Below are positions 27,984 through 53,483 of a stretch of 64,000 nt of DNA, piece after piece. The translations under genes were made by a program, and so were the position numbers. Within the stretch, counting starts at the first letter, position 1; each line of letters starts with the position of its first letter. Below the pieces are notes generated by a model, which had not been told where the DNA came from, did not search any database, and worked only from the letters and a program-made list of their open reading frames with translations. The stretch is from Pelagibius litoralis (GTDB lineage: Bacteria > Pseudomonadota > Alphaproteobacteria > Kiloniellales > Kiloniellaceae): the NCBI RefSeq assembly GCF_011683915.1, contig NZ_JAAQPH010000017.1, forward strand, positions 62,001 through 126,000. Reading direction: 5' to 3'.

Positions 27984-28003
27984 GCATTCAGTATACGGTA
28001 TGC
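27984..28003 (-). promoter_or_regulatory. GTATAC operator array upstream of creatininase operon
   Basis: GCATTC-A-GTATAC-G-GTATGC on the plus strand, three half-sites spaced by 7 bp; the core 13-mer (27991-28003) is GTATACGGTATGC. On the minus strand the TATACT inside it can serve as the -10 box for the creatininase operon. Member of the shared island operator family. Confidence 0.65.
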
Positions 28004-28224
28004 ATAAAAGAGACTAGCGAGAACCTCAGCGAGATGCAAGCTCTGCTAACTGATTTTGTGGAGGGCGGCGCCGATGGTGCGAGAGGCGGGAATGCCGCGA
28101 CAGCATGGCAGCTTTCGGGAAAGAGCAGCAACCCACCTGCCGGCAAATCGAAACAGACGGCGATACCGTCGGGGTCAAGGTTTCGCTTTCGCTCTATCCG
28201 CAGCCTGTAAGTCGTCGAGATTGG

Positions 28225-28555
28225 CTAGGCGCAAAGCTTCGCCGCTCGACTGACATCTTTAGGGTAGGCTTGGCTCTGGAGATCGTTCTCTGCACGTTGG
28301 TGGCGTAGCGCAGCGTTACGGCCGGCAACCTCGCCGCTGACTATGCACTCGGCAGCATTTTCACTACCCAGATAAAGATGGCCGAACGCTTTGCCGCATT
28401 CGCGGGCCACATAGAGGCCGGGGATCGGCTTGCCGAAAGGATCAAGCACGAACTGCTCTTTGTCGCGCGTGGGCCCACCTTGCGTATTTGAGAGGGTTTG
28501 GTGGACCTCGGTGACACAGAACGGCGGCTCCTGAGAGCAGGGGATTGCAAACCGG
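28225..28555 (-). pseudogene. FAD-binding dehydrogenase (FRD/SDH flavoprotein type), C-terminal remnant
   Basis: The open minus-strand frame reads CVTEVHQTLSNTQGGPTRDK, then FVLDPFGKPIPGLYVAREC, GKAFGHLYLGSENAAECIV and SGEVAGRNAA. This is the end of a fumarate-reductase/ketosteroid-dehydrogenase type flavoprotein, where the last GRxAGRNAA helix binds FAD. No start or N-terminal FAD motif is found to the right, and the operator and promoter of the next binding-protein gene begin at 28580. It is thus a truncated leftover. Confidence 0.6.
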
Positions 28556-28579
28556 CTCCGAGAGCACTTTCAAAATGAG

Positions 28580-28608
28580 TTGGCTGAATTATTGGTATAC
28601 GGTATTCT
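28580..28608 (+). promoter_or_regulatory. Promoter with overlapping GTATAC operator, binding protein 1
   Basis: -35 TTGGCT (28580-28585), 17-bp spacer, -10 TATTCT (28603-28608). The operator 13-mer GTATACGGTATTC (28595-28607) covers the end of the spacer and the -10, so a bound regulator would block RNA polymerase. The layout is the same as at 32498-32526. Confidence 0.65.
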
Positions 28609-28653
28609 TAATATGGTTGTAGAGAAGCAATCTAAGAAATGGAGGCGGGGACA

Positions 28654-30228
28654 ATGAAAACATTTGTTTTTAGATGGCTGGCCGCGATGGCCCTGAGCGT
28701 GGGCTTCGCGGTAGGCGCCGTGGCACAGGCCAAAGCGGCGGAACTGCGGATCGGAATGGACGGGGCGATCAGTTCGATAGACCCGCTGTATCACAACAAT
28801 GGCAATAACCTGATGGTGTCGGCACACATATTCGACCCATTGGTGGACAGGGATGAAAAAGGTGAGCTGATTCCAGGCTTGGCTCAGTCGTGGCAATTGG
28901 TGAACGATAGGCTTTGGGAGTTCAAACTACGCCCCGGTGTTAGGTTTCATGACGGTGCACCGCTGACAACAGGAGATATCAAGTTCTCTCTTCAACGCCC
29001 GCCCAAGGTCCCGAACAGCCCATCGTCCTATGTCGGTTACGTGAGATCGATCGAGCGCATAATCCAAGTTGATGAATTAACCCTTCAAATTGAAACAGAG
29101 GCACCCGACCCGGAGCTTCCGCGAGATTTATCGTACGTTTATATTCAATCGAAGAAGGCCGCCGAGGGTAAGACAACGGACGATTTCAATAAGGGAGTTG
29201 CGGCCGTCGGTACGGGCCCCTTCAAATTCGTCGAATACATCCCCGGCCGGCAGATCGTCCTTGCGCGCAATGATGATTATTGGAGAGGGGTCTCCAATTG
29301 GGAAAAGGTAACGATTTTGCCGATCAAAAACAGCGCGGCTCGGCTTGCGGCGCTGCTCACCGGTGATGTCGATGTAGCATCGGGAATCCCAACGGTCGAT
29401 CTGCCTAAGCTGCGTCAAAATCCCAAAATTGCCATCGTCTCGGGACCGCAAAACCGCGTTTTCTATCTGCAAGTAGACCACCGCGACCAATCGCCCATGA
29501 CGTTCGACAATGACGGCAATGTGCTTGCAAAGAATCCTTTACAGGATCTACGCGTGCGCCAGGCAATGTCCAAAGCTATCAATAGAGAGCTTCTCATTGA
29601 TCGACTTCTAGAAGGGCAGGGTACTCCGGCCGGGGAAGCTATTCCGCCGGGGTTTAGGGGTTCGAACCCGAAACTGATCGCTGACGCCTATGATCCGGAA
29701 GGTGCAAAAAAGCTCCTGACTGATGCCGGCTTTCCAGACGGGTTTCGTTTGATACTGCACGGCGCCAACGATCGGTATGCGTTCGATGAAAGCATGCCTC
29801 AAGCGATTGCTCAGATGTTTTCTCGGATCGGCATCAAGTCGGAAATTGAACTCTCCCCAAACTCCTTGTTCCGAAAGCGTGGTAAGGCCGGTGAACTCAG
29901 CCTCCAGTTCGGTGGTTGGGGGAATTCCAGCGCGGTTTCGATGCTGGTTGCTGTCATGCATTCTCCCGACAAGGAAAAGGGTTTCGGATCTTCGAACAGA
30001 GGGCGGTATTCGAACTCGGAGTTCGACGAATTCCTCGAGCAGACTCTTGCAACGATGAACCCAGAGGAACGGCTCGCGTCGATCCGGAAAGCCACTGAAA
30101 TGGCCATGAAGGATCTCGCGGTCATCCCATTGTTTTGGACCGAGTTCGCATGGGGTATGCGAAACGATCTCTTGATGAAGCCCAATTCTCGAGGGCTGAC
30201 CTTTGCGAAGGACGTTAAACCAAATTGA
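28654..30228 (+). CDS. Family 5 ABC transporter binding protein 1 (island paralogue)
   Basis: A 524-residue secreted protein from ATG 28654 behind GGAGGCGGGG, with a Sec signal peptide (WLAAMALSVGFAVGAVAQAKAA). Family 5 marks include KLRPGVRFHDGAPLTTGDIK, AAVGTGPFKFVEY and DLRVRQAMSKAINRELLIDR. It is one of three island paralogues (others at 32569 and 53530), all with PNSPSS, EGKTTDDFNKG and the C-terminal IPLFWTEFAWGMR or IPLYWA(T)xSWGMR element. Only one permease/ATPase set (41774-45716) exists in the island, so the three probably feed one transporter with different ligands. Regulated through the overlapping GTATAC operator; ends at a strong hairpin. Confidence 0.9.
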   Translation: MKTFVFRWLAAMALSVGFAVGAVAQAKAAELRIGMDGAISSIDPLYHNNGNNLMVSAHIFDPLVDRDEKGELIPGLAQSWQLVNDRLWEFKLRPGVRFHDGAPLTTGDIKFSLQRPPKVPNSPSSYVGYVRSIERIIQVDELTLQIETEAPDPELPRDLSYVYIQSKKAAEGKTTDDFNKGVAAVGTGPFKFVEYIPGRQIVLARNDDYWRGVSNWEKVTILPIKNSAARLAALLTGDVDVASGIPTVDLPKLRQNPKIAIVSGPQNRVFYLQVDHRDQSPMTFDNDGNVLAKNPLQDLRVRQAMSKAINRELLIDRLLEGQGTPAGEAIPPGFRGSNPKLIADAYDPEGAKKLLTDAGFPDGFRLILHGANDRYAFDESMPQAIAQMFSRIGIKSEIELSPNSLFRKRGKAGELSLQFGGWGNSSAVSMLVAVMHSPDKEKGFGSSNRGRYSNSEFDEFLEQTLATMNPEERLASIRKATEMAMKDLAVIPLFWTEFAWGMRNDLLMKPNSRGLTFAKDVKPN

Positions 30229-30270
30229 GAGAAGGCTTGGCTGACCCTGGTTCAGGTTTTGGCGTACATA

Positions 30271-30303
30271 GGCCCGAATGGTGGTGCTTTCGCCATTCGG
30301 GCC
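30271..30303 (+). terminator. Terminator-like hairpin after binding protein 1
   Basis: GGCCCGAATGG / CCATTCGGGCC, a perfect 11-bp stem with an 11-nt loop, 43 bp after the stop. A degenerate copy follows binding protein 2 (34199-34228). Confidence 0.6.
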
Positions 30304-30470
30304 GTCCCTGCGCAAGGGGTTGCTCGCCCGCTGATATGATGACCTTTTCGAAAACCTGAAAAGCTATCGGAAGAGGCTTTCCATTTTTCTGGGCAAAGCC
30401 TGGCCCATTCTGTTACCAGGGTTATGGCAAGTTTCGATATCGCCTCTGCGAGCCAGGAGATACCCCTTCA

Positions 30471-31658
30471 CTACAATTTCTGGAGGGGTACGTAGACTCT
30501 CCCACCAAACAGCTTTCGACTGGTACGCACAATCGAGATGCCGGAGACGGATTCTTCAGTATCCGAGTTTTCCTTATCAACAGAAAGTGTCATGAAGCCG
30601 GACGGATGCTCTATACAGAAGTCAATCTTGTGGCCAGCTGGATTGAGGGTGGCAATTTCGGAAGCTACTGTCCCCGATAGCACCGAGGCCATCGTCAAGC
30701 AAACCGCACCAGAACCGGAATAAGCAGCATGACAGCGGGCCGGCGAACCGGGGTGGGTTGCCAATTTGCGTGACGCTATCGAACCTTTTTCTTGCGGCGG
30801 TGCGATCATGATTGAGCCTGGTGAGGTGTTGTTTGCAAAATCCTCAAGGCCGATCAATCGACCAGCTTCTTGCCTGATCGGTTCGATCTGTGCGGCAAGC
30901 GCCTCGTCCGCATCTAGCTCTTTCTTGCTCTCGTAGCCTGTTCTGCCAAATGAGTCGGCACGAAAGACTATGCATACCGTGCCGCCGGCATCGACAACTG
31001 TGATAGGGACCCCATTGACCACATCGAGTCTGTGGCCTGTTGGGAAAAGTGCGCCAACAAGGTTTCCAAAGGGGGGCCGGTAGGTCACCAATACCGGAGC
31101 TGACGTACCGGCCACCCCGTCGATTGCGGTGTCGCCCTCATATGTGACGGCGCCTTGTGGTGTCTTCACTTTGGAAGTGTAGTTCATCTGAGAATTCACG
31201 GCAAAGATACGCACCTCCGTTTCGTCACTCGATGCTGTTACAAGACCGTTTTCGACAGCAAAAGGGCCAACAGATGTCCCCATGTTCACGCTGTTCCCAA
31301 ACCCGTCGATTCTCGTGCTGTGCGGAGTGATTTGAAGAAATGTGTAGTCAACATCAGCTTCCGGCCTTTGCGACTTTGAAACAATGATGACCTTGTTGGA
31401 TAGCGTTTCCGCGCCGCCGACGCCGTCTATTTGACCTGGGTGTTCGGGGTTCAGTGCCGCCAGAATGATCCGATTCCGAAAATTCTCATCGCTCGGTAAG
31501 TCAGAAGCTAGGAACACGGGGCCCTTGGAAGTGGCGCCTCGATACAGAGAACAAGGAATTCCAACAAGACCACCTGCGATTTCGAGGGATGGGGTTTCGA
31601 GCCAGTCAGCTAGCGATGGTGTATCGGGCTTGTCAGGCATTTCGGCGGATTTTTTCAT
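30471..31658 (-). CDS. PrpF/4-oxalomesaconate tautomerase-family isomerase 1
   Basis: A 395-residue protein from ATG 31658 behind GGAGG; the frame is open to 31790 but with no ribosome site. It belongs to the PrpF (DUF453) family, a diaminopimelate-epimerase fold that shifts double bonds in methylaconitate, oxalomesaconate and similar tricarboxylates. Visible marks are PCSLYRGATSKGPVFLASDL (usual RGGTSKG, here RGATSKG), DGVGGAETLSNKVIIVSKS and the CHAAYSGSGAVCLTMAS stretch near the C-terminus. It is separate from, and convergent with, binding protein 1. A second, more typical PrpF gene is at 50552. The substrate here is unknown; an epimerase-like action on an amino-acid-derived acid is possible. 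Confidence 0.8.
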   Translation of the reverse strand: MKKSAEMPDKPDTPSLADWLETPSLEIAGGLVGIPCSLYRGATSKGPVFLASDLPSDENFRNRIILAALNPEHPGQIDGVGGAETLSNKVIIVSKSQRPEADVDYTFLQITPHSTRIDGFGNSVNMGTSVGPFAVENGLVTASSDETEVRIFAVNSQMNYTSKVKTPQGAVTYEGDTAIDGVAGTSAPVLVTYRPPFGNLVGALFPTGHRLDVVNGVPITVVDAGGTVCIVFRADSFGRTGYESKKELDADEALAAQIEPIRQEAGRLIGLEDFANNTSPGSIMIAPPQEKGSIASRKLATHPGSPARCHAAYSGSGAVCLTMASVLSGTVASEIATLNPAGHKIDFCIEHPSGFMTLSVDKENSDTEESVSGISIVRTSRKLFGGRVYVPLQKL

Positions 31659-31885
31659 GCTGGTATTCCTCCAGATAGGTAATGGCCATTTCCTGCTACG
31701 AGCAGGTATCGAGGGAAGGTGCTCGGCGGAACTGATTGCACCCGCTAACCATGATCCGCTCCAAGGGAGAGCTAGTGCATTTCCAAACAAACTATTGAGT
31801 GCTGAGCCGTCGTTTGGGTCAAAGAGCCAAGATCAAACAGGTTCAGGGACCCTTCGACCCAATGTTTCACCAAAGCATGGTAATG

Positions 31886-31898
31886 GTATACTGAATAC
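31886..31898. promoter_or_regulatory. GTATAC operator-like site upstream of PrpF-1
   Basis: GTATAC-T-GAATAC, one mismatch from the palindrome. It lies 228 bp before the PrpF-1 start on the minus strand. It could serve a leftward promoter, or a lost rightward gene, since TATACT here also reads as a plus-strand -10. Confidence 0.45.
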
Positions 31899-32497: not shown

Positions 32498-32526
32498 TTG
32501 GCTGTACTCATTGTATACGGTATACT
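32498..32526 (+). promoter_or_regulatory. Promoter with perfect GTATAC-G-GTATAC operator, binding protein 2
   Basis: -35 TTGGCT (32498-32503), 17-bp spacer, -10 TATACT (32521-32526). The operator 32513-32525 is the perfect 13-bp palindrome GTATACGGTATAC and includes the -10 box. Best copy of the motif in the window. Confidence 0.7.
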
Positions 32527-32568
32527 GTGCGCGGCCGTATAAAGACAACCTAAGCAATGGAGGCAGGG

Positions 32569-34149
32569 ATGATGAAATTATCTGTTTTGAAATCACTGGC
32601 GGCTGTGATCCTGAGTGCCGGCATCACGGCAGGCGCCTTGGCGGAGACCAATGGGACCGAGCTTCGAATCGGTGTCAGCGGCGCTTTCAATTCGGTGGAT
32701 CCGATGTTCCACAATCTCACGCCTAACCTGGATGTTTCGAAGCACCTTTTCGATGGTTTGGTTAAGCTTGATGAGAACCTGGAACTGAAGCCGGGTCTGG
32801 CTCAGTCGTGGAAGCTGGTGAACGATACCGTTTGGGAGTTCAAACTGCGCCCCGGCGTGAAATTCCACGATGGCAAGCTGCTGATGCCGGAGGATGTTAT
32901 CTTCTCCATTGAACGCGCGCCCAACGTACCGAACAGCCCCTCTTCGTTTGCCGGTTATGTGACGTCCGTTGAGAGGGTTATTGAAATTGATCCGTTGACG
33001 ATCCACGTCGAAACCAAGGAGCCCAATCCAACCCTGCCCCGGGACTTGGTCAATATATCTATTCTGTCGAAGAGCGCGGCCGAAGGTAAGACAACAGACG
33101 ACTTTAACAAGGGGGCAGCCGCTGTCGGCACAGGCCCCTTCAAGTTCGTCGAGTTTGAGCACGGCAGACGCATTGTCCTTGCCCGTAACGGCGGCTACTG
33201 GGGTGAAATGCCGGCTTGGGAGAAAGTGACCATCCTGCCGATCACGAATAGCGCAGCTCGCGTCGCGTCGCTGCTTACCGGTGACGTCGATGTAATTGCC
33301 GGGATACCACCGATTGATCTGCCGAAGCTTCGGGAGAATTCGAAGATCACGATAGTTTCGGGGCCGCAGTCTCGCATCTTCTATCTGCAGATCGACCACC
33401 GCGACCGAGCGCCTATGGTATTCAATAACGATGGCGAAGTGTTCGACAAGAATCCACTTCAAGACCTGCGCGTCCGACAGGCAATGTCCAAGGCAATCAA
33501 CCGCCAGCTTCTGATAGACCGGGTGATGGAGGGGGAGGCTGTTCCGGCGGGTCAGATCTTGCCAAATGGGTTCTACGGGGCCAATCCGACGCTTGACCAG
33601 GCTGACGCATACGATCCGGAAGGCGCCAGGAAACTATTGACCGAGGCTGGTTACCCGGACGGCTTTCGTATGACGCTAACCACCTCGCATGACCGTTATC
33701 CAACTGCGGAGAGCATGGTCCAGGCAATTGCTCAGATGTTGACACGGGTAGGTATCAAAACCGATGTCGAACTGGCCCCCCACTCTATCTTCCGCAAGCG
33801 CGGCAGGGCGGGAGAGCTCAGCGTTCAGTTTGGCGGTTGGGGCAACGACGGTGCCACGTCTTTTATGGTGGGCGTTTTGCATACGCCTGATAAGGAAAGG
33901 GGATTTGGACCTGCGAACCGTGGTGTTTATTCCAATCCGGCATTCGATCAGGCTCTGGAGGAAGCGCTTCGTACGATGGATGTGGACGAGCGCCTGGGTA
34001 AGATTCGTAAGGCGACCGAAATGGTTATAAACGACCTTGCGATTATCCCGCTTTACTGGGCGACGCATTCGTGGGGGATGCGGAAAGACCTCGCTTTCAT
34101 TCCCAATCCGTTGCAACACACGCCGGCCATGGAAATAAGGCCACGATGA
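32569..34149 (+). CDS. Family 5 ABC transporter binding protein 2 (island paralogue)
   Basis: A 526-residue secreted protein from ATG 32569 or 32572 (GGAGG just upstream) with a Sec signal peptide (SLAAVILSAGITAGALAE). It is close to binding protein 3 along its length (SGAFNSVDPMF, KLLMPEDVIFSIERAPNVPN, FEHGRRIVLARN) and more distant from protein 1. Family 5 elements LRPGVKFHDG, GTGPFKFVEF and RVRQAMSKAINRQLL are intact. It stands alone behind the strongest GTATAC operator. Expected to hand its ligand to the permease/ATPase complex at 41774-45716. Confidence 0.9.
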   Translation: MMKLSVLKSLAAVILSAGITAGALAETNGTELRIGVSGAFNSVDPMFHNLTPNLDVSKHLFDGLVKLDENLELKPGLAQSWKLVNDTVWEFKLRPGVKFHDGKLLMPEDVIFSIERAPNVPNSPSSFAGYVTSVERVIEIDPLTIHVETKEPNPTLPRDLVNISILSKSAAEGKTTDDFNKGAAAVGTGPFKFVEFEHGRRIVLARNGGYWGEMPAWEKVTILPITNSAARVASLLTGDVDVIAGIPPIDLPKLRENSKITIVSGPQSRIFYLQIDHRDRAPMVFNNDGEVFDKNPLQDLRVRQAMSKAINRQLLIDRVMEGEAVPAGQILPNGFYGANPTLDQADAYDPEGARKLLTEAGYPDGFRMTLTTSHDRYPTAESMVQAIAQMLTRVGIKTDVELAPHSIFRKRGRAGELSVQFGGWGNDGATSFMVGVLHTPDKERGFGPANRGVYSNPAFDQALEEALRTMDVDERLGKIRKATEMVINDLAIIPLYWATHSWGMRKDLAFIPNPLQHTPAMEIRPR

Positions 34150-38202: not shown

Positions 38203-39780
38203 TCACGGCTTGCTCACTGTTAGTTCTTCAGCAGCATGCTCGAGTGAAACCACTCCTGACCAAGTTGCTTGCGGATCTAGGGGGTACATGGGCCTGGGTA
38301 TTTTGTGGAAAGGAAAGGCATCGAGTTGCCGCGCGGTGAGACCGGGCGAATCGACGTCGTAGACCTGCTCAGGTCCGAAGAACTCGCTGAAACCTGCCCT
38401 GAAGTGCCCACGAGACTTTACGGCCACGCTGCGCACTTGGGCGAGGTCCACCCCAACCATTTCGAAGAAGACCGGGTCATAGCACTGCTGCCGAATCGAG
38501 ATGACGAGAACTCGGATGCCGCCAATACGAAGGAGACAACTTGCTCCCAAGTCCAGGCTTTGCCCTTCCATGACGCCTTTTCGGCCGACGCAGCGGCCAT
38601 TGTGTAGGCGCTCGATAACCGCTTCCGCATCGAATTTTCCTGATAGGGGGTCTTCTTCATTTCGGTTGAACTTTGCCCGGAACGTTGCGCCCTCGCCGAG
38701 GCGGTGAGCTTCCGCCGCCAGCATGGGGTCGTTGAGTCCGCCCATGACACAATCTTGGATACCGGCTTCATGAAATGCGGACAGCAGCCAGATCGTGTTG
38801 CCGCGGGCGCCGCCGCCTGGATTATCGCTGGTGTCCGCGAAAATCACCGCAGGCTCGTTCCGGCTCAAATTCGCCTTTCGTGCCAGGGAGACGGCGTCGT
38901 CTATGGTGATAAGATTCAGGACGAAGCCGTCACGTTCTTGCCATAGCTTCGATGCGACGGCCGTTGCGACCCGCTTTGCAGTCTCCTCATCATCTTCGGT
39001 GGTCACGGTGACGGCCATACCGCTCTTCGGGCTGTCGCCATGGGTATAGCCGGTGGTAAGGGAGATGTGGAGGACCGGCGGCTTCCAGAGGGACTGCGCG
39101 TAATCCAGAACATCACGAATAGGATACTTATCGGTGAGCTGCGTCGGTGACGGCGCAATCAGCGGCAGTTTCACGAAGGCGCTTCTCGTTTGCATCCCCT
39201 TAAGCATGCGGGCGACAAGCTCCGCGGCTTCTGTTCCGCATTCGGCCATATCAACGTGGGGGTTTGTACGATAAGCGATCAGAACGTTAGCCAACTGGGC
39301 CATTTCCGACGACACGTTGGCATGGAGATCGAGAGTGACCACAATCGGCACCTTCGGTCCAACGATGTGCCGAACCTGATTCAGCAACGTGGCCTCTGGA
39401 TCTTCATCCTCGGCACCCTTGGCCGAGCCATGGAGCGCCAGGTACACGGCGTCAACCGGAAGAGCGCTGCGAATACAATCGCAGATTTCGGCAATCATCT
39501 CGTCGAGGAAAGACTGCTCGATGGGACCGGTGGCTCCGCCATAGGCACTGATCAGAGGGATGAGTTGGCAAGTCGGTTCCAGTTTCCTGAACTGGTCGGT
39601 AAAAGCCTTCAACTCCTGTGGCGCGCGGGGATGGCTTTGCCGTATGTCGTCCATCAACGATTCGCCGGCGAAGAATCCGTTGGCGTAGAACTCCTCTTTT
39701 GTCGCGGTAGGCGAGCGAGGATTGCACTCCGCCATCAGGCTTCCGACCGCTACTTTGTAGTGATTGCGTGACGAACTCAT
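38203..39780 (-). CDS. M81-family metallopeptidase (MlrC-like)
   Basis: A 525-residue protein from ATG 39780. It has the M81/DUF1485 N-terminal domain (VAVGSLMAECNPRSP, YLALHGSAKGAEDEDPEATL, VVTLDLHANVS with metal-binding Asp and His near 155) and the C-terminal MlrC domain (TTGYTHGDSPKSGMAV, VIFADTSDNPGGGARGNT). The founder MlrC cleaves linear microcystin fragments, peptides rich in D-amino acids and Adda. The usual early metal ligands HE...TFSP read ECNPRSP here, so one ligand may differ. It is divergent from the D-aminoacylase gene across 239 bp holding the double GTATAC operator, so the two are co-regulated and probably act on the same imported D-peptides. Confidence 0.82.
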   Translation of the reverse strand: MSSSRNHYKVAVGSLMAECNPRSPTATKEEFYANGFFAGESLMDDIRQSHPRAPQELKAFTDQFRKLEPTCQLIPLISAYGGATGPIEQSFLDEMIAEICDCIRSALPVDAVYLALHGSAKGAEDEDPEATLLNQVRHIVGPKVPIVVTLDLHANVSSEMAQLANVLIAYRTNPHVDMAECGTEAAELVARMLKGMQTRSAFVKLPLIAPSPTQLTDKYPIRDVLDYAQSLWKPPVLHISLTTGYTHGDSPKSGMAVTVTTEDDEETAKRVATAVASKLWQERDGFVLNLITIDDAVSLARKANLSRNEPAVIFADTSDNPGGGARGNTIWLLSAFHEAGIQDCVMGGLNDPMLAAEAHRLGEGATFRAKFNRNEEDPLSGKFDAEAVIERLHNGRCVGRKGVMEGQSLDLGASCLLRIGGIRVLVISIRQQCYDPVFFEMVGVDLAQVRSVAVKSRGHFRAGFSEFFGPEQVYDVDSPGLTARQLDAFPFHKIPRPMYPLDPQATWSGVVSLEHAAEELTVSKP

Positions 39781-39801: not shown

Positions 39802-39821
39802 GAATACAGTATACCGTATTA
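39802..39821. promoter_or_regulatory. Double GTATAC operator between M81 peptidase and D-aminoacylase genes
   Basis: GAATAC-A-GTATAC-C-GTATTA: three half-sites with 7-bp spacing forming two overlapping 13-mers. Leftward, TTGACA (minus strand, about 39829-39834) with 17-bp spacing to TACGGT within the array gives a promoter for the M81 gene. The site could govern both divergent genes. Confidence 0.65.
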
Positions 39822-40019
39822 AGTTGAGATGGTCTTGTCAATCGCGGAAGCGATCGGTGGGTTGGAAGCTTTGTCAGATGTTTAGTCTTGGACTGTCGTT
39901 GTGTTTTTCAATTTGTCAGAGCAGGTGCAGGACCTTGAAAGGCGACAAAAGCGGCAGGCAACATGTTTCCAGCCAGCGGACGTGATCTCCGCAGAATGCG
40001 GAAAAACAGAGGGAAAATC

Positions 40020-41535: not shown

Positions 41536-41558
41536 TGACTGTATACGGAATACATGCA
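41536..41558 (+). promoter_or_regulatory. Promoter/operator of the island transporter operon
   Basis: TTGACT (41536-41541) overlaps the start of the operator GTATAC-G-GAATAC (41541-41553); a weak AAACAT follows at 17-bp spacing. The operator therefore lies between -35 and -10, unlike the binding-protein promoters. It sits 220 bp before the first permease gene. Confidence 0.5.
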
Positions 41559-41773: not shown

Positions 41774-42760
41774 GTGACTGTTTTTGTTATTCGCCGACTG
41801 TTTCAAAGCATCCTGACTCTGTTCGTCACATCGCTCCTGATATTCTTTGCTGTCTTTGCCATCGGCAACCCGATCGACGTACTGATCGATCCTGCGGCGG
41901 ATCAGATCGAATTCGAACGTGCCATGAAAGCCCTTGGTCTCGATCAACCGATCTGGGATCAGTACTTCATCTTTCTGAAGAATGCCCTGCAAGGGGACGT
42001 AGGGCGTTCGTTCGTCTTCAACACTCCCGCGCTTGAGCTCATTTTGCAGCGTTTCCCGGCGACGCTGGAACTGGCACTTACTTCCCTGGTGATTGCGAAT
42101 GTGATTGGAATTCCGCTTGGGCTGTATGCCGGACTCAAACCGGAAAGCGTTGGCGGGCGTTCTATCATGGCCGGATCAATTCTCGGGTTCAGCCTACCTG
42201 GTTTCTGGGTCAAGTTGACAATGATCATGTTGTTTGCGGTCGAGCTTGGCTGGTTTCCAGCAGGGGGGCGGGGTGAAACGGCGACGTTCCTCGGGATTAC
42301 CTCAAGTCTCTTCACAGTCGACGGCCTGAGTCACATCGCTTTACCCGCTACGGGCTTATCGTTGTTCACCATGGCTTTGGTGATCCGTCTGACTCGCTCC
42401 GGGGTTCGCGAAACCTTGCCGATGGACTACATCAAGTTTGCCCGTGCAAAAGGCCTTAGGGAGTCACGGGTGATTTCGGTGCACGTCCTCAAGAACATTT
42501 TGATCCCGATCGTGACGGTGATGGGATTGGAGTTTGGAGGCACGGTCGCCTTCACGGTGATAACGGAAACCATTTTTTCTTGGCCGGGTATGGGCAAGCT
42601 CCTTATCGAGTCGATAAACTTTCTCGATCGCCCGGTTGTGGTGGCCTATATCCTGCTTGTCGCAACGATGTTCATTGGCATCAATCTCATGGTCGATCTC
42701 GTTTACGCGGTACTTGACCCCCGCGTGCGACTCTCGGATACGGGAAGCGAAAGCAAATGA
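41774..42760 (+). CDS. Dpp-type ABC transporter permease (DppB-like), island
   Basis: A 328-residue B-type permease starting at GTG 41774: N-terminal membrane segment (LFQSILTLFVTSLLIFFAVFA), a periplasmic loop, and five more segments with the BPD_transp_1 domain. The EAA loop is PMDYIKFARAKGLRESRVIS...LKNILIPIV. First gene of a four-gene operon (two permeases, two ATPases) with overlapping starts and stops. It is the only family 5-compatible channel in the island, and so probably serves all three island binding proteins. Confidence 0.92.
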   Translation: MTVFVIRRLFQSILTLFVTSLLIFFAVFAIGNPIDVLIDPAADQIEFERAMKALGLDQPIWDQYFIFLKNALQGDVGRSFVFNTPALELILQRFPATLELALTSLVIANVIGIPLGLYAGLKPESVGGRSIMAGSILGFSLPGFWVKLTMIMLFAVELGWFPAGGRGETATFLGITSSLFTVDGLSHIALPATGLSLFTMALVIRLTRSGVRETLPMDYIKFARAKGLRESRVISVHVLKNILIPIVTVMGLEFGGTVAFTVITETIFSWPGMGKLLIESINFLDRPVVVAYILLVATMFIGINLMVDLVYAVLDPRVRLSDTGSESK

Positions 42761-43692
42761 CCGTCGTTTCTTCTACGCAAGGATCTGATACCACCAGTGA
42801 TGAAGAAGGCAGAGTCTTCGTAGAAACGCCGCTTCGGCGTTTCATCTCGGACTTCAGTGAGTCATGGCTCGCTCTTGCCGGCTTGGTGATGTTTCTCACC
42901 ATAGTGTCTTTGGCAGTATTTGCTCCATTAATCGCACCGCAAGATCCCTACGATCTTTCCACGCTCGACCTTTTGGACAGTAAGCTTAAACCGGGAGAAC
43001 TGCTGTCCAGCGGACAGGTCGCCTGGCTCGGAACAGATGGGCTGGGCCGCGATATCCTGAGCGCGATCATGTATGGCTTGCGCATCAGCCTCGCGGTCGG
43101 GGCCTCAAGTGCGTTCATTGCACTCTTCATTGGTGCTTCTATCGGGTTGGCCGCCGCTTATGCCGGGGGACGTGTCGATGCGATCATCATGCGAATCGTC
43201 GACATTCAGCTGAGCTTTCCATCAATACTCATCGGCTTGGTTCTGATCGCAGTGTTGGGGAGCGGTACTGAAAAGATCATCGTTGCTCTGGTGGCCGTGC
43301 AGTGGGCCTACTACGCACGGACCGTGCGCGGTACTGCGCTGGTTGAACGGCGAAAAGAGTACATCGAAGCAGCACGGTGTCTTGCGCTCAGCAGTCGTGT
43401 CATTCTCTTTCAGCATCTTCTGCCGAACTGCCTGCCGCCCTTGATCGTCCTTGTCACCGTGCAGGTCGCCCACTCGATTGCGCTGGAGGCCTCCTTATCC
43501 TTTCTCGGTGTCGGCTTGCCCGTCACGGAACCCTCGTTGGGCCGGCTGATCGCCAACGGCTTCGAGTACATGATGAGTGGGAAGTATTGGATTAGCTTCT
43601 TCCCAGGCCTCGCATTGCTGTTTCTGATTCTCTCGATCAATCTGGTTGGCGATCAAGTCCGAGACGTTCTAAATCCACGGCTCCAACGGTAG
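42757..43692 (+). CDS. Dpp-type ABC transporter permease (DppC-like), island
   Basis: A 311-residue C-type permease, overlapping the previous stop by ATGA. OppC-like N-terminus with one membrane segment (LAGLVMFLTIVSLAVFAPLI), the WLGTDGLGRDILSAIMYGLR element near residue 92, EAA loop (RKEYIEAARCLALSSRVILF...LPNCLPPLIV) and the LEASLSFLGVGLPVTEPSLG ending. Together with the B-type subunit it forms the channel. Confidence 0.92.
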   Translation: MTVVSSTQGSDTTSDEEGRVFVETPLRRFISDFSESWLALAGLVMFLTIVSLAVFAPLIAPQDPYDLSTLDLLDSKLKPGELLSSGQVAWLGTDGLGRDILSAIMYGLRISLAVGASSAFIALFIGASIGLAAAYAGGRVDAIIMRIVDIQLSFPSILIGLVLIAVLGSGTEKIIVALVAVQWAYYARTVRGTALVERRKEYIEAARCLALSSRVILFQHLLPNCLPPLIVLVTVQVAHSIALEASLSFLGVGLPVTEPSLGRLIANGFEYMMSGKYWISFFPGLALLFLILSINLVGDQVRDVLNPRLQR

Positions 43693-43696
43693 ATCT

Positions 43697-44689
43697 ATGA
43701 CACATATTCCCACTCTGGCTGTTGAGGGCCTTCAAACTTGGTTTCACACCAAAGCCGGCGTACTGAAGGCCGTCAACGGGGTTTCTTTCGAAGTCGACCG
43801 CGGCAAGGTTTTGGGCCTGGTTGGCGAGTCCGGGTCGGGTAAGACCGTAACAGGTTTCTCAATCATCGGGCTCGTGGATCCTCCTGGTAGAGTCGAAGGT
43901 GGGCGTATACTTTTTAACGGAACCGATCTTGCCCGTTTGCCGGCTGAGGAGCTGAGGCAGCTCCGAGGTGCACGCATCGCCATGATCTTCCAAGACCCTA
44001 TGATGACCCTGAACCCGGTCCTTCGCATCGATACCCAGATGATTGAGGCTATCCGCACGCATTCGAACGTTTCTTATAAGAAGGCGCGAAGCCAGGCTCG
44101 TGATGCGCTTGGTCAAGTTGGCATCCCGAGCCCAGACGAGCGGCTTGCAGCTTACCCGCACCAGTTTTCAGGCGGTATGCGTCAGCGTGTCGCGATCGCG
44201 ATCGCACTGCTCAACAAGCCAGACCTGATCATTGCCGACGAGCCGACCACCGCTCTCGACGTGACGATCCAAGCCCAGATCCTGTTCGAGGTTCAGAAGC
44301 TTTGCCGTCAGACGGGAACGGCATTGATTTGGATCACGCACGACCTTTCTGTGGTCGCCGCGATCGCCGACGAGGTCTGTGTCATGTACGCGGGTCGAAT
44401 TGTCGAACAAGGCGTTATCGACGAAGTGCTTGATCGGCCAACCCATCCCTACACCCAAGGACTCATTGGCTCTGTCCCCGGCCACAATCGCCCCGGCTCG
44501 CCTCTTCAGCAGATCCCAGGCGTCATGCCGTCTCTGCTTACCTTGCCAAAGGGTTGCAGTTTTCGCCTACGTTGCCGTTATGCCGACAGCGCCTGTCAGG
44601 TTGAGCCGGAGATGCACGTCGTCGCGAATCCTTACCACGCCACCAAGTGTTGGCACCCCCTTTCCGGTGAGGTCAGTCATGGCATCTGA
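43697..44689 (+). CDS. Peptide ABC transporter ATPase (DppD-like), island
   Basis: A 330-residue ATPase: Walker A GESGSGKT near residue 40, Q-loop IFQDPMMTLNP, signature FSGGMRQRVAIAIAL, Walker [14 protein letters not shown] and switch His in ITHDLSVV. The C-terminal oligopeptide/dipeptide region with the Cys cluster (GCSFRLRCRYADSACQ) is present. It begins 4 bp after the permease stop and overlaps the next ATPase gene by 11 bp. Works as a heterodimer with the F-type subunit. Confidence 0.93.
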   Translation: MTHIPTLAVEGLQTWFHTKAGVLKAVNGVSFEVDRGKVLGLVGESGSGKTVTGFSIIGLVDPPGRVEGGRILFNGTDLARLPAEELRQLRGARIAMIFQDPMMTLNPVLRIDTQMIEAIRTHSNVSYKKARSQARDALGQVGIPSPDERLAAYPHQFSGGMRQRVAIAIALLNKPDLIIADEPTTALDVTIQAQILFEVQKLCRQTGTALIWITHDLSVVAAIADEVCVMYAGRIVEQGVIDEVLDRPTHPYTQGLIGSVPGHNRPGSPLQQIPGVMPSLLTLPKGCSFRLRCRYADSACQVEPEMHVVANPYHATKCWHPLSGEVSHGI

Positions 44690-45716
44690 GTCGACACCAC
44701 CTGCTCGTCGTGAATCGGTGGCAGCACCGCTCATCGAACTCGCCGGCGTGTCGCGGCGTTTCGAAAAGAAGCGCGATATCGCTGTAAAAATTGCCGGAGC
44801 GTTGGGACTCGGCGTTCAAGAGGAAATTGTCCAAGCAGTCGACCAAGTTGATTTGGTGGTACGTGAAGGTGAAGTCGTCGGTCTGGTTGGCGAGTCCGGC
44901 TGTGGCAAGTCTACGCTGGGCCGCATGGCCGCCGGAATACTGCCGCCAAGCGAAGGCCATATCTACTATCGAGAGCGGGACATCTCGAGTCTGGATAAAG
45001 CAGAGGCCCGCGCTGCCGCGCTTGCTGTTCAAATGATCTTTCAGGACCCCTTCGGGTCACTCAATCCGCGCATGCGCGTCAAGAATATCATTGGCGGCGC
45101 GCCTGTTCATCACGGGTTGGTCCGGCGTTCGGAAGTCAGCCGTCATGTCGATGACGTGATGCAGCGGGTCGGCCTCGACCCAGCGTACAAGCGTCGCTTC
45201 CCTCATCAATTCTCCGGCGGACAACGTCAACGCGTCGGAATCGCCCGGGCCCTTGCGGTGAACCCTAGGCTTATCGTTTGCGACGAAGCGGTGGCGGCCC
45301 TGGACGTTTCGATCCAGGCCCAAATCCTGAACCTCTTTATGAAGCTGCGCAGGGACCTTGACCTCACGTACCTCTTTATCAGTCATGATCTAAGCGTGGT
45401 GCAGCATCTTTCCGATCGCGTGGCGATTATGTACCTGGGCCGTATTGTCGAAGAAGGGCCTGCCGCCGAGTTGTTTGCAGAGCCCAATCACCCCTACACG
45501 ATAGCGCTGTTGAAAGAAGTGCCGCGATTGGATGTGCGCCGCCAGGAGTTCGCGCCCATAAAGGGCGAAATTCCCTCGGCGCTCAATCCTCCATCGGGCT
45601 GCCACTTTCATCCGCGTTGCCCACACGCCACGCCAAAATGCCGCACCGAGACACCTGAGCTTAAGGAGATCGCACCGGGAAGGCGCTCCGCCTGTCATTT
45701 GAACGCCGAACTATAG
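44679..45716 (+). CDS. Peptide ABC transporter ATPase (DppF-like), island
   Basis: A 345-residue ATPase from ATG 44679; the upstream open frame lies within the D-type gene and is not coding. Walker A GESGCGKS near residue 71, [15 protein letters not shown], signature [15 protein letters not shown], Walker [13 protein letters not shown] (usual EPT reads EAV), switch His [10 protein letters not shown] and the C-terminal Cys cluster [15 protein letters not shown]. Last gene of the transporter operon; 425 bp without a gene follow. Confidence 0.93.
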
Positions 45717-47240: not shown

Positions 47241-47282
47241 ATTGATAGGATTTGTCATCCCCACGTGATAAATGTGAATTCT

Positions 47283-47295
47283 GTATACGGGCTTC
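47283..47295. promoter_or_regulatory. Degenerate GTATAC operator
   Basis: GTATAC-G-GGCTTC: one perfect and one decayed half-site, about 300 bp before the first GntR gene. Possibly a relic of an operator for a lost gene or a weak autoregulatory site. Confidence 0.3.
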
Positions 47296-47551: not shown

Positions 47552-48230
47552 TTCTGCATAGCCCTTACTATAGAACCGAGTTAACTGTCATGGATGCACC
47601 AGCCCGATCCTCTCATCTGTTCGAACAGATACACGAAATTCTCTGGGGAAAAATCCTCCAAGGTGAAATTGAACCAACTCAGCGCCTGAAAGATGTTGAA
47701 TGGGCTGCGAAGCTCGGCGTAAGCCGGACGCCGGTACGCGAGGCAATGAGAAAGATGCAACAGGAAGGTATCCTCATCCCGCTCAATCAAGGTGGGTATG
47801 AGGTACGATCGGTCACGATGACCGATCTCCAAGATCTTTACCGCTGCCGGTCGGCGCTTGAAGTGCAGGCTGCACGCGAGGCTGCGGAGCATTTTGGGCC
47901 GAAGGTCGCGAAGCATTTCACTGGCCTCATCCGGATGATCGACCGTGCCCTTGAGCGTAAGGACTTAGACTTGGCTTTGGCATTGAATGGCGATTTCCAT
48001 CGTGATTTGATCAAGCAGAGTGGAAATGTTCATCTGCTAGGCCTCTACGAAACGATCAGAAAACTCACGCTCTTCTACCGCACAACATTGTTGAATCGTG
48101 CCAAGGCGGACACAGACCGAAAGAAAACATACGCCCGGCGCTTCATGGCTGGCAACAAGGAGCACCGGGCCATTATCAAGGCGTTGACTGAACAGGATGG
48201 TGAAAAGGCCGCCAGCCTGATGCAGAGTCA
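47552..48230 (+). repeat. Tandem duplication unit A (GntR gene with leader)
   Basis: From TTCTGCATAGCCCTTACTAT at 47552 onward the sequence repeats at 49141-49819, covering the 38-bp leader and most of the GntR gene. Identity is near complete over the leader and the first about 250 bases of the gene and falls off afterwards. A decayed IS6 copy (48331-49067) separates the units. Confidence 0.85.
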
Positions 48231-48276
48231 CATGCTTCGGGCTACCGAACACTTGAACCAGGAAATTTCGAAGTGA
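47590..48276 (+). CDS. GntR-family (FCD) regulator 1
   Basis: A 228-residue FadR/FCD-type repressor from ATG 47590. N-terminal winged helix: LWGKILQGEIEPTQRLKDVE and WAAKLGVSRTPVREAMRKMQ (recognition helix in SRTPVREAM). The FCD effector domain from about residue 85 keeps the metal site: ALNGDFHRDL, NKEHRAIIKAL and MQSHML. FCD proteins usually bind carboxylates or sugar acids. Residues 1-80 are identical to regulator 2 except at positions 2 and 5, so both should read the same operator, presumably the island's GTATAC-N-GTATAC. The ligand domain has about 30 differences plus a different tail. Lies right of the D-amino acid aminotransferase gene. Confidence 0.9.
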   Translation: MDAPARSSHLFEQIHEILWGKILQGEIEPTQRLKDVEWAAKLGVSRTPVREAMRKMQQEGILIPLNQGGYEVRSVTMTDLQDLYRCRSALEVQAAREAAEHFGPKVAKHFTGLIRMIDRALERKDLDLALALNGDFHRDLIKQSGNVHLLGLYETIRKLTLFYRTTLLNRAKADTDRKKTYARRFMAGNKEHRAIIKALTEQDGEKAASLMQSHMLRATEHLNQEISK

Positions 48277-49140: not shown

Positions 49141-49819
49141 TTCTGCATAGCCCTTACTATAGAACCGAGTTAATTGTCATGAATGCACCAGTCCGATCCT
49201 CTCATCTGTTCGAACAGATACACGAAATTCTCTGGGGAAAAATCCTCCAAGGTGAAATCGAACCAACCCAGCGCCTGAAAGATGTTGAATGGGCTGCGAA
49301 GCTCGGCGTAAGCCGGACGCCGGTGCGCGAGGCAATGAGAAAGATGCAACAGGAAGGTATCCTCATCCCGCTCAATCAAGGTGGGTATGAGGTACGATCG
49401 GTCACGATGACTGATCTCCATGACCTTTACCGCTGTCGATCGGCGCTTGAGGTGCAGGCTGTACGCGAGGCTGCGGAGCATTTTGGACCGAAGGTCGCGA
49501 AGCATTTCACTAGCCTCATCCGGATGACTGACCAGGCTATTGAGCGCAACGACCTAGACAGGGTATTAGCGCTGAACAGCGAGTTCCATCGGGATCTGAT
49601 CGAGCAGAGTGGGAATGTTCACCTGCCGGGCCTCTGCGAAACGATCAGAAAACTCACGCTGTTCTACCGTACCGCTTTGTTGAATCGCGCCAAAGCAGAC
49701 GCACGGCGGAAGAAAGACTACGTCCAGCGCCTCAAGGCCAAGCAGAAAGAACATCGCGCCATCATTAAGGCGCTCACCGAACAGGATGGAGAAAAGGCTG
49801 CCAGTTTGATGCAGAGCCA
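49141..49819 (+). repeat. Tandem duplication unit B (GntR gene with leader)
   Basis: Second copy of the unit at 47552-48230; same leader, near-identical DNA-binding part, diverged effector part. No GTATAC site is present in the shared leader. Confidence 0.85.
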
Positions 49820-49859
49820 TCTACTCCAGACTGCCCAGCACATGGAGTTGGAATCTTGA
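49179..49859 (+). CDS. GntR-family (FCD) regulator 2
   Basis: A 226-residue paralogue of regulator 1 starting at ATG 49179 with the same leader. The helix-turn-helix is the same to the residue, while the FCD domain differs in pocket-flanking regions (SLIRMTDQAIERNDLDRVLA versus GLIRMIDRALERKDLDLALA; KADARRKKDYVQRLKAKQ versus KADTDRKKTYARRFMAGN). The metal residues LNSEFHRDL, KEHRAI and MQSHLL remain, with Glu in place of Asp before FH. So it probably binds the same DNA but answers to a different ligand. Heterodimers with regulator 1 are possible. Confidence 0.9.
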   Translation: MNAPVRSSHLFEQIHEILWGKILQGEIEPTQRLKDVEWAAKLGVSRTPVREAMRKMQQEGILIPLNQGGYEVRSVTMTDLHDLYRCRSALEVQAVREAAEHFGPKVAKHFTSLIRMTDQAIERNDLDRVLALNSEFHRDLIEQSGNVHLPGLCETIRKLTLFYRTALLNRAKADARRKKDYVQRLKAKQKEHRAIIKALTEQDGEKAASLMQSHLLQTAQHMELES

Positions 49860-50243: not shown

Positions 50244-50489
50244 TCACTCAGAGCACCATGGGGGTAGACGTCCACCTGCTATGTCATCAGTACCGGCATC
50301 TATCGCCGCATAGGGCCAGGTTAGTTTTTGCTGTGCTTCTGACAGGCTTTCATCGAACCATTTGTCGAACGCCGCAGGGTCTGCACCGTTGAGCGGAAAG
50401 AACTGCCAGATGCGGGCGTCTTCTGCGATCTTCGTGCGGAACCAAAGTTGGCTCGCTGCCTGATCGCGGTCACAATGGAATTCCGTCAC
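50244..50489 (-). pseudogene. GNAT acetyltransferase N-terminal fragment
   Basis: The frame reads ARIWQFFPLNGADPAAFDKW, FDESLSEAQQKLTWPYAAID and then leaves homology after DIAGGRLP. This matches the first third of RimJ-like GNAT N-acetyltransferases (xxIWxxxPx...WP(F)AxID). The acetyl-CoA-binding part is missing. Confidence 0.45.
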
Positions 50490-50551
50490 CCGGCGCAGTT
50501 AACGTGTCAGTGCCTCCGGGGGACTGCAACACTAGGAAAGAAGATTGATCG

Positions 50552-51715
50552 ATGAAACAAAGGACAATCAAGGCCGTTTTCATGCGTGGTGGTACTAGCA
50601 AAGGTTTGTTCATGCATCGTTCGGACCTGCCTGAAGATGCTTCCATGCGTGATGCCCTTATCTTGGCCGCGATGGGTAGTCCGGATCCGTTTGAACGCCA
50701 ACTCGATGGAATGGGTGGTGGCATCTCTTCACTGTCAAAAATCATGATCGTGGATCGATCCACCCGGCCTGGTGTCGATATTGAATATGTCTTTGGCCAG
50801 GTCTCGGTTGACGAAGCCGTTATCCACTATCAAGGGAATTGCGGAAACCTGACGTCGGCGGTTGCGGCCTTCGCTGTAAACGAAGGCCTGGTTAATCCCA
50901 AAGACGGCTTGGTGAAACTAAGGATGTTGAGCCTGAATACAGGAACTATTGTTGGGGCAACCTTGGGGGTGAAAGAAAGCGAGGCTGTGGTGGAAGGGAA
51001 CTTCGTTGTCGATGGGGTATCGGGCTCAGGAGCACTGATCCAACTGGACTTCCTCAATCCTGCCGGAGCAGTGTGCGGGAAGTTGCTTCCGACCGGTATG
51101 CCTGTCGATGTGCTTGAAGTTCAAGGGGTCGGAGGTGTCAGTACAACGATCATGGATGCCGGCACTCTCGTCGTGTTCGTGAACGCTGAGGCACTGCGAT
51201 TGTCCGGGCGGGAACGGCCAACCGAAATACAAGCTGATAAGCCTATGATGGCCAAGCTTGAAGCGATCAGAGTCGAAGCTGCGGTCCGTATTGGGGCGGC
51301 CCGCTGCACCTCAAGAGTCAGTCACCTCTCCCCTTCAAAACTATCTATTTCTCTGGTTGCCTCGACAGAGGGACAAGCTGCGGCGGAATCTGAGACTATT
51401 CGACATAACGAAGCCGACATATATGTCCAGAGTATCTCGATGGGCGTTCCACATAGGGCAATCCCGGTTGGTGTCGCAATGTGTACTGCCGTTGCTGCAA
51501 AGGTTGAAGGCACAGTGGTCAACCACCTGATCCGGCGTAATGTCGACGGGCGCACAATCCAGATCGCCCATCCCGCAGGCCTTTGTCCTGTTGATGCAGT
51601 CGTAAGCAATACTGATGGCTGGCATGTCGATTCGATAGCAGCGTCGAGAACGGCACGCCGTTTGATGAGCGGCTTGGTTTACGCACCGGAGTCGCGGGTA
51701 TGCCTTCCACTCTGA
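50552..51715 (+). CDS. PrpF/4-oxalomesaconate tautomerase-family isomerase 2
   Basis: A 387-residue protein from ATG 50552 behind AGGAAAGAAG. Typical PrpF features: FMRGGTSKGLFMHRSDLP near residue 10, DGMGGGISSLSKIMIV near 50, VIHYQGNCGNLTSAVAAFAV near 90 and PHRAIPVGVAMCTAVAAKVE near 295. Compared with isomerase 1 (30471) it keeps the family's RGGTSKG and GNCGN with the catalytic Cys, so it is the more orthodox member. Likely isomerises an unsaturated di- or tricarboxylate. It stands alone between the GNAT piece and a degraded gene; no GTATAC site is near. Confidence 0.85.
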   Translation: MKQRTIKAVFMRGGTSKGLFMHRSDLPEDASMRDALILAAMGSPDPFERQLDGMGGGISSLSKIMIVDRSTRPGVDIEYVFGQVSVDEAVIHYQGNCGNLTSAVAAFAVNEGLVNPKDGLVKLRMLSLNTGTIVGATLGVKESEAVVEGNFVVDGVSGSGALIQLDFLNPAGAVCGKLLPTGMPVDVLEVQGVGGVSTTIMDAGTLVVFVNAEALRLSGRERPTEIQADKPMMAKLEAIRVEAAVRIGAARCTSRVSHLSPSKLSISLVASTEGQAAAESETIRHNEADIYVQSISMGVPHRAIPVGVAMCTAVAAKVEGTVVNHLIRRNVDGRTIQIAHPAGLCPVDAVVSNTDGWHVDSIAASRTARRLMSGLVYAPESRVCLPL

Positions 51716-51716
51716 T

Positions 51717-53124
51717 TCACGGCCTCGGAACAACACTGAATTGAGCGACAGGCATCCGCGATCTTACGTTCGAGGAAGCCGCCGCCGTTAGGGCATGGAG
51801 TACTGATAGGGCCTTTTCGGCAGCCGGTTGCCAGTCCTCGACAATTTGCTCTATGCGCTGGCTCATCATGCCGGCCTTACCTGTCAAGTTGTTGGTGTCG
51901 TCGTGGACGCGGATCATGAGATCTTTGAGACAGTCGACATCGTTGGGGAAGGACTCATGTGGACATAGGTTGAACAACCCGGTAGGCAGCAAGACATAGA
52001 GTACTGGATCAATCTCGGGCTGTTGACGAATCACGGGACAATAGAATTTACGCAGGTAATTGGCCACACTACGGAAGTATCCGCGGGCTCTGGGTGGATA
52101 GCCCGCCATCGGAATGCCACCTCAGTGGAGATGTGGACTGCAGGGACGCGTCAATTCCGACGGTACTTCGTCGAGGGCTGGATAGTGACTCTGAAGAACT
52201 GAATAAAGCATTTGGATTATGGAAATGGCTGGAAGAGGCATTTGTTCGGGCAGGTCTTTGATCCTTTCCACAAAAACACTCGGGCTGAGCGGTGAGTAGG
52301 ATCGGGAGCATTGCGTGGTCTATGAGTTCACGAATGTCAGAGTAATGCGCCGTGTTCATCCGGAACCCCTGTCCCGATAATTCGAGCGGCACTCGAGTGA
52401 CGCGGCCGTCCAAGCTTACACAGCGATCAAATATGCGCTTCAACAACTGCTCTGGTTGCTTGTGACCACGGGCATCATCGAGTAGCACGCCAAGTATCTT
52501 CCGCACGAGCCCCTCATGGCGTACGAAGAGTGTCGACTGAAAACGGAACTCTCCAAGATCATTGAGGTTGTTGCGGTGAAGTCTTGTAAGGGGCAATAGC
52601 TGACCGTCGATGGAGGTAAGAGTGAACGGAGTGAAAAGAGGCCCGCTCCTGTCTCTTTTGCGAAAGCAAGAGCCATTCCACGTGAAAAGGTCCAGCATTC
52701 TTCGTTCTGTGCGATCGACCATCGAGCCGGGCATACAACTCCAGTCACCGGCGTCTGGGGCTTCGGCTTCCGTCTGATTGCAATCGAAAATAAGGGGATA
52801 CCCCAAGCGACGTGAGCCAAAGGCAATGTGGTTGTAATCGCGCGAACCGGCGCGACCGTGAACCATATTTGCCCAGTTACCAATATGTCCGGTTCGCGAA
52901 GGAAGTATGAAGGGGTCTTGGCGCAGTGTATCTATAAGTTGGCCGATTTCGATCTCAGAGTTACCCATGTGAACCCAATCGAACGCCAACTCTCTGCTGG
53001 CAAACTGATCCATGGATCGCGCATTCAGTTTAGCTTTGTTTGCCATCTGCTTGAACATGCCGATCGATCGAAGCAATTGTGTTCGACATAGTCTCCGGAA
53101 ATGGCTTGGGGGCGTGTTTTCCAA
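51717..53124 (-). pseudogene. Degraded gene of unknown function, at least two frameshifts
   Basis: Three consecutive minus-strand frames together look like one protein of about 450 residues. Segment 1 (from 53124, best from about 53010) contains ASRELAFDWVHMGNSEIEIG, RTGHIGNWANMVHGRAGS and GEFRFQSTLFVRHEGLVRK. Near 52290 it shifts to a frame reading VFVERIKDLPEQMPLPAISI and YSVLQSHYPALDEVPSEL, while the first frame becomes Ser-rich nonsense. From about 52109 a third frame reads ANYLRKFYCPVIRQQPEIDP, VLYVLLPTGLFNLCPHE and VEDWQPAAEKALSVLHAL to 51717. I recognise no family; there are no membrane segments or clear catalytic motifs. Confidence 0.5.
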
Positions 53125-53450
53125 TACTCAGTCATCTGATTTTCATCAATCCATAAGGCTGGGATGGATGGCGTGCTCTCCAGCGGGCCGTTACGGGCGG
53201 CTTTATATTTTGTCTGCGTTGCAATGCGTTCAGAACAGAAATCAGGAATCTCTATTCTAATGCAATACAATGAAATTATAACAATGAAAAATGTTCGCGT
53301 ATTCAATATTAGAGAAATAATATAGAAAAATATATTGTAGTTCATTTTTCTACTTTTCTTGAAATACTGAAGCTGTTTTTGTCTCCTGGTTGGGCTTATT
53401 GCGGCATGCGGCGGTGTGGACTGTGAACGCCGCCAAGGCGGCGTTCAAAA
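53125..53450. other. AT-rich intergenic region
   Basis: No gene. From about 53235 to 53385 the sequence is strongly AT-rich with A/T runs, similar to the region before binding protein 2. A short G+C-rich palindrome AACGCCGCC-AAG-GCGGCGTT (53426-53446) precedes the promoter of binding protein 3. Confidence 0.45.
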
Positions 53451-53453
53451 GAT

Positions 53454-53483
53454 ATGGCAAAATCATATTGTATACAGTATCCT
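53454..53483 (+). promoter_or_regulatory. Promoter with overlapping GTATAC operator, binding protein 3
   Basis: Operator GTATAC-A-GTATCC (53470-53482); its right half with the next T forms TATCCT (53478-53483) as -10. The -35 is weak (ATGGCA or TGGCAA, 53454-53460). Same arrangement as before binding proteins 1 and 2. Confidence 0.55.

Follow-up and report, generated by a model that had tools for sequence, protein, structure and literature searches.

The closest described relative of the system reported here is centered on Atu1419 of Agrobacterium fabrum, a GntR-type transcription factor assigned to the VanR group of FCD regulators (PMC7797058). Atu1419 binds ATGTATACAT, with Arg45 touching G3 and Thr46 touching A5. 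Its 10-bp palindromes overlap the -10 promoter box or sit between -10 and -35, and they occur singly, about 110-190 bp apart, with a tetramer able to loop the DNA; the target genes function in hydroxycinnamic acid breakdown. A second point of comparison is E. coli NanR, a GntR-type repressor of catabolic genes. PMC8012715 describes three NanR dimers cooperatively occupying three adjacent hexamers, (GGTATA)3, which are non-palindromic and bound asymmetrically, and a 32-residue N-terminal extension that this cooperativity requires. Finally, bioinformatic work has identified additional boxes in 23 orthologous groups, placed 7-12 nt from GntR-family sites as weaker half-sites (PMC4494728). Here we describe a family of sites built on GTATAC-N-GTATAC that lies ahead of scattered genes in a 25.5-kb catabolic island of the marine bacterium Pelagibius litoralis, within a 64,000-nt stretch of contig NZ_JAAQPH010000017.1 (“the window”, meaning this stretch at its full length). 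We consider it highly probable that these sites are operators of the island’s own FCD-type GntR, encoded as GntR1 (47590-48276, plus strand) and its paralogue GntR2 (49179-49859, plus strand), a predicted repressor of a peptide-type uptake and breakdown island.

We scanned for GTATAC-N-GTATAC under stated mismatch ceilings, using as a control either the reversed pattern or, for the window, 100 dinucleotide shuffles. At up to three mismatches the window contains 22 matches, against a shuffled mean of 4.8 and maximum of 11. Across the whole genome (6,028,128 bases), the motif with at most one mismatch occurs at seven places; all seven lie within the island and none inside a called gene, rather than at the random or in-gene positions that would speak against a regulon. 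The reversed pattern occurs at four places under the same ceiling, and the motif is therefore notable for its concentration, not for its number. At up to two mismatches there are 21 places genome-wide, ten of them in the island, and 45 for the reversed control. Judged by site center, all ten of these island matches fall outside called open reading frames (ORFs), while the non-coding share of the island is 27%. A refined consensus, GWATWCNGWATWC, matches exactly at six places in the genome, again all within the island, with 47276-47288 among them. Overall, the same operator stands ahead of member genes and little of it is found elsewhere in the genome, as expected of a regulon. The original prediction had drawn an island-wide regulon from eight motif places, all of which are present in the sequence; its regulon reading is well supported by the seven genome sites and by the recurrence of the motif around the same GntR type in six other genomes, discussed below. 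Its statement that coding regions are free of sites holds for the ten island matches with up to two mismatches, but three-mismatch look-alikes lie inside PrpF1 (30604) and OppD (43905), and one array, at 27984, extends over an ORF's first ATG.

The sites are positioned, as originally proposed, ahead of the creatininase operon, all three binding-protein genes, the divergent M81/amidohydrolase pair (the second gene then called a D-aminoacylase), the transporter operon and PrpF-1; operators are given here without strand. The array at 27984-28003, GCATTC-a-GTATAC-g-GTATGC, precedes the operon of a creatininase-family amidohydrolase (27172-27987, minus strand) and an aminotransferase class V enzyme (25916-27175, minus strand). 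It runs across the initial ATG (27985-27987) of that creatininase-family ORF, whose true start is probably a later methionine. Two operators lie 31 bp ahead of genes for peptide-type solute-binding proteins (SBPs; SBP_bac_5 family): GTATACGGTATTC at 28595-28607 ahead of SBP1 (28639-30228, plus strand), and GTATACGGTATAC at 32513-32525 ahead of SBP2 (32557-34149, plus strand), the latter being the perfect operator claimed for that position. A third, GTATACAGTATCC at 53470-53482, lies 47 bp ahead of SBP3 (53530-55107, plus strand). GTATACTGAATAC (31886-31898) is 95 bp ahead of the ORF for PrpF-1, a PrpF-family protein resembling 4-oxalomesaconate tautomerase (30471-31790, minus strand). The array GAATAC-a-GTATAC-c-GTATTA (39802-39821) separates the divergent genes for an M81 (MlrC-like) metallopeptidase (38203-39780, minus strand) and an amidohydrolase (39963-41468, plus strand). 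GTATACGGAATAC (41541-41553) lies immediately 3' of a TTGACT, 220 bp ahead of OppB in an OppB-C-D-F-type ABC transporter operon (41774-45716, plus strand). The last site, taken for a decayed copy at 47283, is in fact an exact fit to the refined consensus, GAATTCTGTATAC at 47276-47288, of which 47283 is the right-hand overhang; it lies about 300 bp ahead of GntR1 (308 bp from its center). Of two related loci, L012 has a two-mismatch site 302 bp upstream of its GntR gene, while L034 has none there.

Inspection of these sites reveals that each operator comprises two GTATAC-like hexamers, mostly of the form GwATwC and phased exactly 7 bp apart, sometimes followed by a third. The 13-bp palindrome of the original prediction is thus present, but is only part of a 7-bp-phased hexamer array, and the two overlapping sites reported at 39802-39821 are better counted as three hexamers, the last incomplete. 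In ten stretches totaling 172 kb, 24 of 40 hexamer pairs within 40 bp have an offset of exactly 7; five of these stretches (L037 and L039-L042) were chosen for motif matches and so are not independent. The rest of the window contains 29 hexamers and no pair. Mismatches cluster at hexamer positions 2 and 5, which hold 24 of the 25 mismatches in 27 island-type sites (those of genome G061 left out; overlapping arrays and related promoters among them are not independent), compared to 28 of 87 in 93 background sites among the matches listed. This clustering is what makes the unit mostly GwATwC. We also aligned 31 sites with no more than one mismatch, drawn from the window and from related loci (G061 supplied four), in which the core is conserved by construction; their flanks show a slight A+T richness and almost no shared information outside the array.

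The Atu1419 structure offers a rationale for this pattern. Atu1419 (6z74) is the closest solved protein to the island GntR by sequence, its operator shares the GTATAC core, and this core fits the general form (N)yGT(N)xAC(N)y given in PMC7797058. Given the Atu1419 contacts to G3 and A5, hexamer bases 1/6 and 3/4 are expected to be constant and 2/5 to vary freely, in agreement with the variation we observe. The contact residues of Atu1419, S44, R45, T46 and R49, correspond to S45, R46, T47 and R50 in the island GntR, and these four are invariant in ten aligned proteins, including two distant FCD regulators. Together, the contacts, the matching variation and the invariant residues support a model in which one dimer would bind each hexamer. 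An alternative is that one GntR dimer or tetramer covers the entire 13-bp palindrome as a single site, with third hexamers as decoration; the 13-mer is itself palindromic about N, and a complete third hexamer is found in only 4 of 27 arrays, including 27984-28003. Complete third hexamers at the same 7-bp phase nonetheless exist, and the conserved bases recur within each hexamer, as a full two-fold Atu1419 site predicts. We regard the single-site arrangement as a real possibility, though an unlikely one.

GntR1 and GntR2 each score above the Pfam cutoffs for an N-terminal GntR winged helix-turn-helix domain and a C-terminal FCD domain, placing both in the FCD subfamily, and they are the only regulators among the 20 window proteins scanned with Pfam. 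Neither belongs to PhnR (TIGR03338), with scores of 124.7 and 123.0 bits compared to the 271.5 required. By analogy, NanR is the closest working analogue of several dimers on adjacent hexamers, and like NanR the island GntR is predicted to repress catabolic genes. The two differ in that the island hexamers are palindromic, GTATAC-like (GwATwC) and phased at 7 bp, not GGTATA direct repeats, and in that the GntR domain of GntR1 begins at residue 12, leaving no NanR-type extension of about 32 residues. Atu1419, for its part, is described with widely spaced single palindromes and hydroxycinnamic acid genes as targets, unlike the packed hexamers and the gene content of the island; and where PMC4494728 describes extra boxes as weaker half-sites, the island has whole hexamers at one fixed offset as a rule.

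Comparison of the two paralogues reveals a mosaic. Synonymous codon differences between GntR1 and GntR2 number 4 in codons 1-78 and 39 in the remaining 147 (Fisher P 6e-5, with similar P values for cuts at codons 100 and 110), and identical residues number 76 of 78 in the DNA-binding part versus 115 of 147 in the remainder. Because of this pattern, the sequences suggest that the DNA-binding halves were homogenized by gene conversion while the effector halves diverged. We raise, tentatively and with considerable doubt, a more specific model: that full-strength FCD dimer sites spaced at a constant 7 bp, a turn of about 240 degrees, would let two or three GntR dimers stack compactly in a helix, and that these sites are read by both GntR1 and GntR2, whose near-identical DNA-binding halves (probably the product of gene conversion) and diverged effector halves would give one operator code and two sensors. 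In the literature searched, we found no description of FCD dimer sites packed at a 7-bp step, and the exact tandem strings occur in papers unrelated by title. The island represents a new regulon. Its regulator family is known and the system itself is of no new kind, but the tight phasing of its operators is an unusual layout. The model makes a specific prediction on how FCD-type GntR proteins stack on DNA, with dimer sites phased at 7 bp, G1/C6 essential and positions 2/5 free, and paralogous regulators with a shared DNA-binding half could be a natural case of one operator with two sensors.

We next consider how the sites and the GntR gene travel together. GntR1-like proteins were seldom detected: in three of 190 relatives (all of the window’s genus, own genome included), in one of 385 genomes of the class (its own) and in two of 346 genomes from the same family as G442 (a Chelativorans genome, itself counted); in these searches the best 7-15 candidates were scored per genome, so a missing relative was not detected rather than proven absent. 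A search of genome contigs gave four GntR1-like loci, including one in Pelagibius marinus (L013), and no plasmid record carried the GntR at E 1e-40. Six other genomes were picked by GntR similarity; together they have 26 sites at up to one mismatch, of which 24 lie no more than 40 kb from a GntR gene: 4/4 in G007, 7/7 in G005, 1/1 in G441, 6/6 in G442, 2/4 in G443 and 4/4 in G835. The two distant sites in G443 mismatch at conserved positions and are taken as chance. G835 served as a forward test, having been chosen for a 42% identical GntR and scanned only once the motif was fixed; at up to two mismatches it has 19 places, mostly away from GntR, and 93 for the reversed control. Five genomes of the same genus in which no GntR was detected contain 0, 0, 0, 0 and 1 sites. 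The genes fronted by sites in other genomes recall those of the island, comprising M81, PrpF, Opp, binding-protein, PGA_cap, aminotransferase-V and GntR genes; on the Chelativorans contig, sites precede aminotransferases V, PGA_cap, a D-serine-dehydratase-like gene, binding proteins, M81/GntR and PrpF.

These data bear on whether a different regulator, encoded elsewhere, binds the sites, with the GntR genes as mere neighbors. Other FCD genes do adjoin such sites in G005, G061, G146, G156 and G096. Against this stand the concentration of sites near the GntR relative in the six genomes, the position of GntR1 and GntR2 as the sole regulators among the scanned window proteins, and the recognition of GTATAC by the nearest solved homologue, and we judge a foreign regulator to be improbable. 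The predicted link between GntR and operator began as a guess in the original prediction and now draws on this joint occurrence in genomes, together with the contacts that the nearest solved relative makes with DNA. Because the same code surrounds related GntR genes in the six genomes, both the pathway and its inducer can be looked for as parts of one system.

In our model, each GwATwC hexamer would be one dimer site of the Atu1419 kind, and two or sometimes three hexamers at 7-bp phase would form one operator, probably taking as many dimers. Bound regulator would then block RNA polymerase at island promoters, since the operator covers the -10 box (SBP2; SBP1 by eye) or directly trails a -35-like TTGACT (OppB). 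At SBP2, the right hexamer of the operator coincides with the -10 box of TTGGCT-17-TATACT, the sole promoter called by a sigma-70 consensus scan; SBP1 shows the same layout by eye (TTGGCT, 17 bp, TATTCT), not called by the scan. The candidate inducer is a metabolite derived from the peptide-like substrate after import; by binding the FCD domain, it would free the regulator from DNA. Its release would induce the three binding proteins, the Opp-type transporter, M81, the amidohydrolase, the creatininase-family/aminotransferase-V operon and PrpF-1, and probably GntR1 as well.

Ahead of OppB, the window, L012 and L034 all retain the block CTTGAC[T/A]GTATACnGAATACATG (CTTGAC[T/A]-GTATAC-n-GAATACATG) in otherwise diverged surroundings. 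This bears on the notion that the likeness among sites reflects promoter DNA copied along with duplicated genes rather than selected operators. Some promoter letters are indeed common to SBP1 and SBP2, but the array flanks share almost no information and the sites precede unrelated genes and persist across species, leaving this explanation very improbable. That an AT-rich word clustered by chance in an AT-richer island (G+C mostly 50-58% versus 59-64% outside) is practically negligible, as none of the 100 shuffles reached the window count and the motif shows genome concentration, exact 7-bp phasing and recurrence in other genomes. Separately, in the transporter promoters of L012 (42, 67) and L034 (9490, 9515), the first site is followed 25 bp downstream by another that is operator-like; of this one, a single GGATAC hexamer remains at the window OppB promoter.

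Several observations weigh against operators of the island’s own GntR. At up to two mismatches, no individual site is present in this window for six island genes, those encoding the D-serine-dehydratase-like protein, PGA_cap, PrpF-2, the D-amino-acid transaminase, DUF6025 and GntR2. The sigma-70 consensus was found in one of five promoter regions scanned (SBP2), with SBP1, SBP3, OppB and M81/amidohydrolase not called. In relatives’ loci, 18 of 36 sites among the matches listed (up to two mismatches) fall inside ORFs, which were crudely called there; several of these, for example L034:9157, L039:7472 and L041:877, apparently lie within N-termini called too long, ahead of the homologous part, these starts also being crude. 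Single sites are common, with 94 of 190 relatives having at least one at up to one mismatch. The exact 13-mer is found in 11 of 398 genomes of the phylum (own included) and the reversed control in 20, and no GntR relative lies within about 1.5 kb at any of 11 phylum motif loci (from ten genomes, G612 twice, the window not counted). Finally, some sites in G005 are next to other FCD regulators, and a sister FCD protein could share them.

We also considered a universal GntR operator, and rejected it on the absence of a GntR relative within about 1.5 kb at all 11 motif loci and all 20 reversed-control loci. A narrower sharing is suggested by the observation that 3 of 16 single sites in class loci hand-picked by motif type (Alphaproteobacteria) lie directly beside an FCD regulator, and that the G061 site cluster also adjoins another FCD gene; sister FCD regulators may therefore use the same operator code. 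In distant Alphaproteobacteria, other FCD-GntR genes have like sites no more than about 130 bp from their matched stretch (L060:3471, L061:3488, L064:3440 and L047:8072), which looks from the sequences like self-regulation with the same code. In G005 (L036, L037), sites with at most one mismatch also have a DctP-type binding protein and additional FCD regulators nearby, and the stretch also holds aconitase-family and PEP-mutase-family genes, hinting at a tricarboxylate branch.

The operator code indicates which scattered genes of the catabolic island would work together. This gene set (Opp-type transport, M81, amidohydrolase, creatininase family, PrpF and pyridoxal-phosphate enzymes) presumably points to modified or D-residue-containing peptides. 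The nearest solved relative of the island M81 protein is MlrC, or microcystinase C (7ylq), and on this basis we considered microcystin-like peptides as the substrate. The protein scores 172.8 bits against the NCBIfam MlrC model, far under the cutoff of 999, and so belongs to a related family and is not that enzyme. The lower G+C content extends over positions 22000-56000 of the window (26-28 kb excepted), and an IS6-family transposase lies at 25115-25801, by the left island edge; from these two features, the island was likely acquired. L012 is a 6.4-kb contig labeled Cf. Phormidesmis, a cyanobacterium, and carries the same transporter at 79-91% identity together with the GntR; it is probably a contaminant from an associated alphaproteobacterium. 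A DUF6025-like protein is encoded near the GntR island in the window (52069-53124) and in two further genomes of the same genus (L034:15926-16735 and L038:2102-2911).

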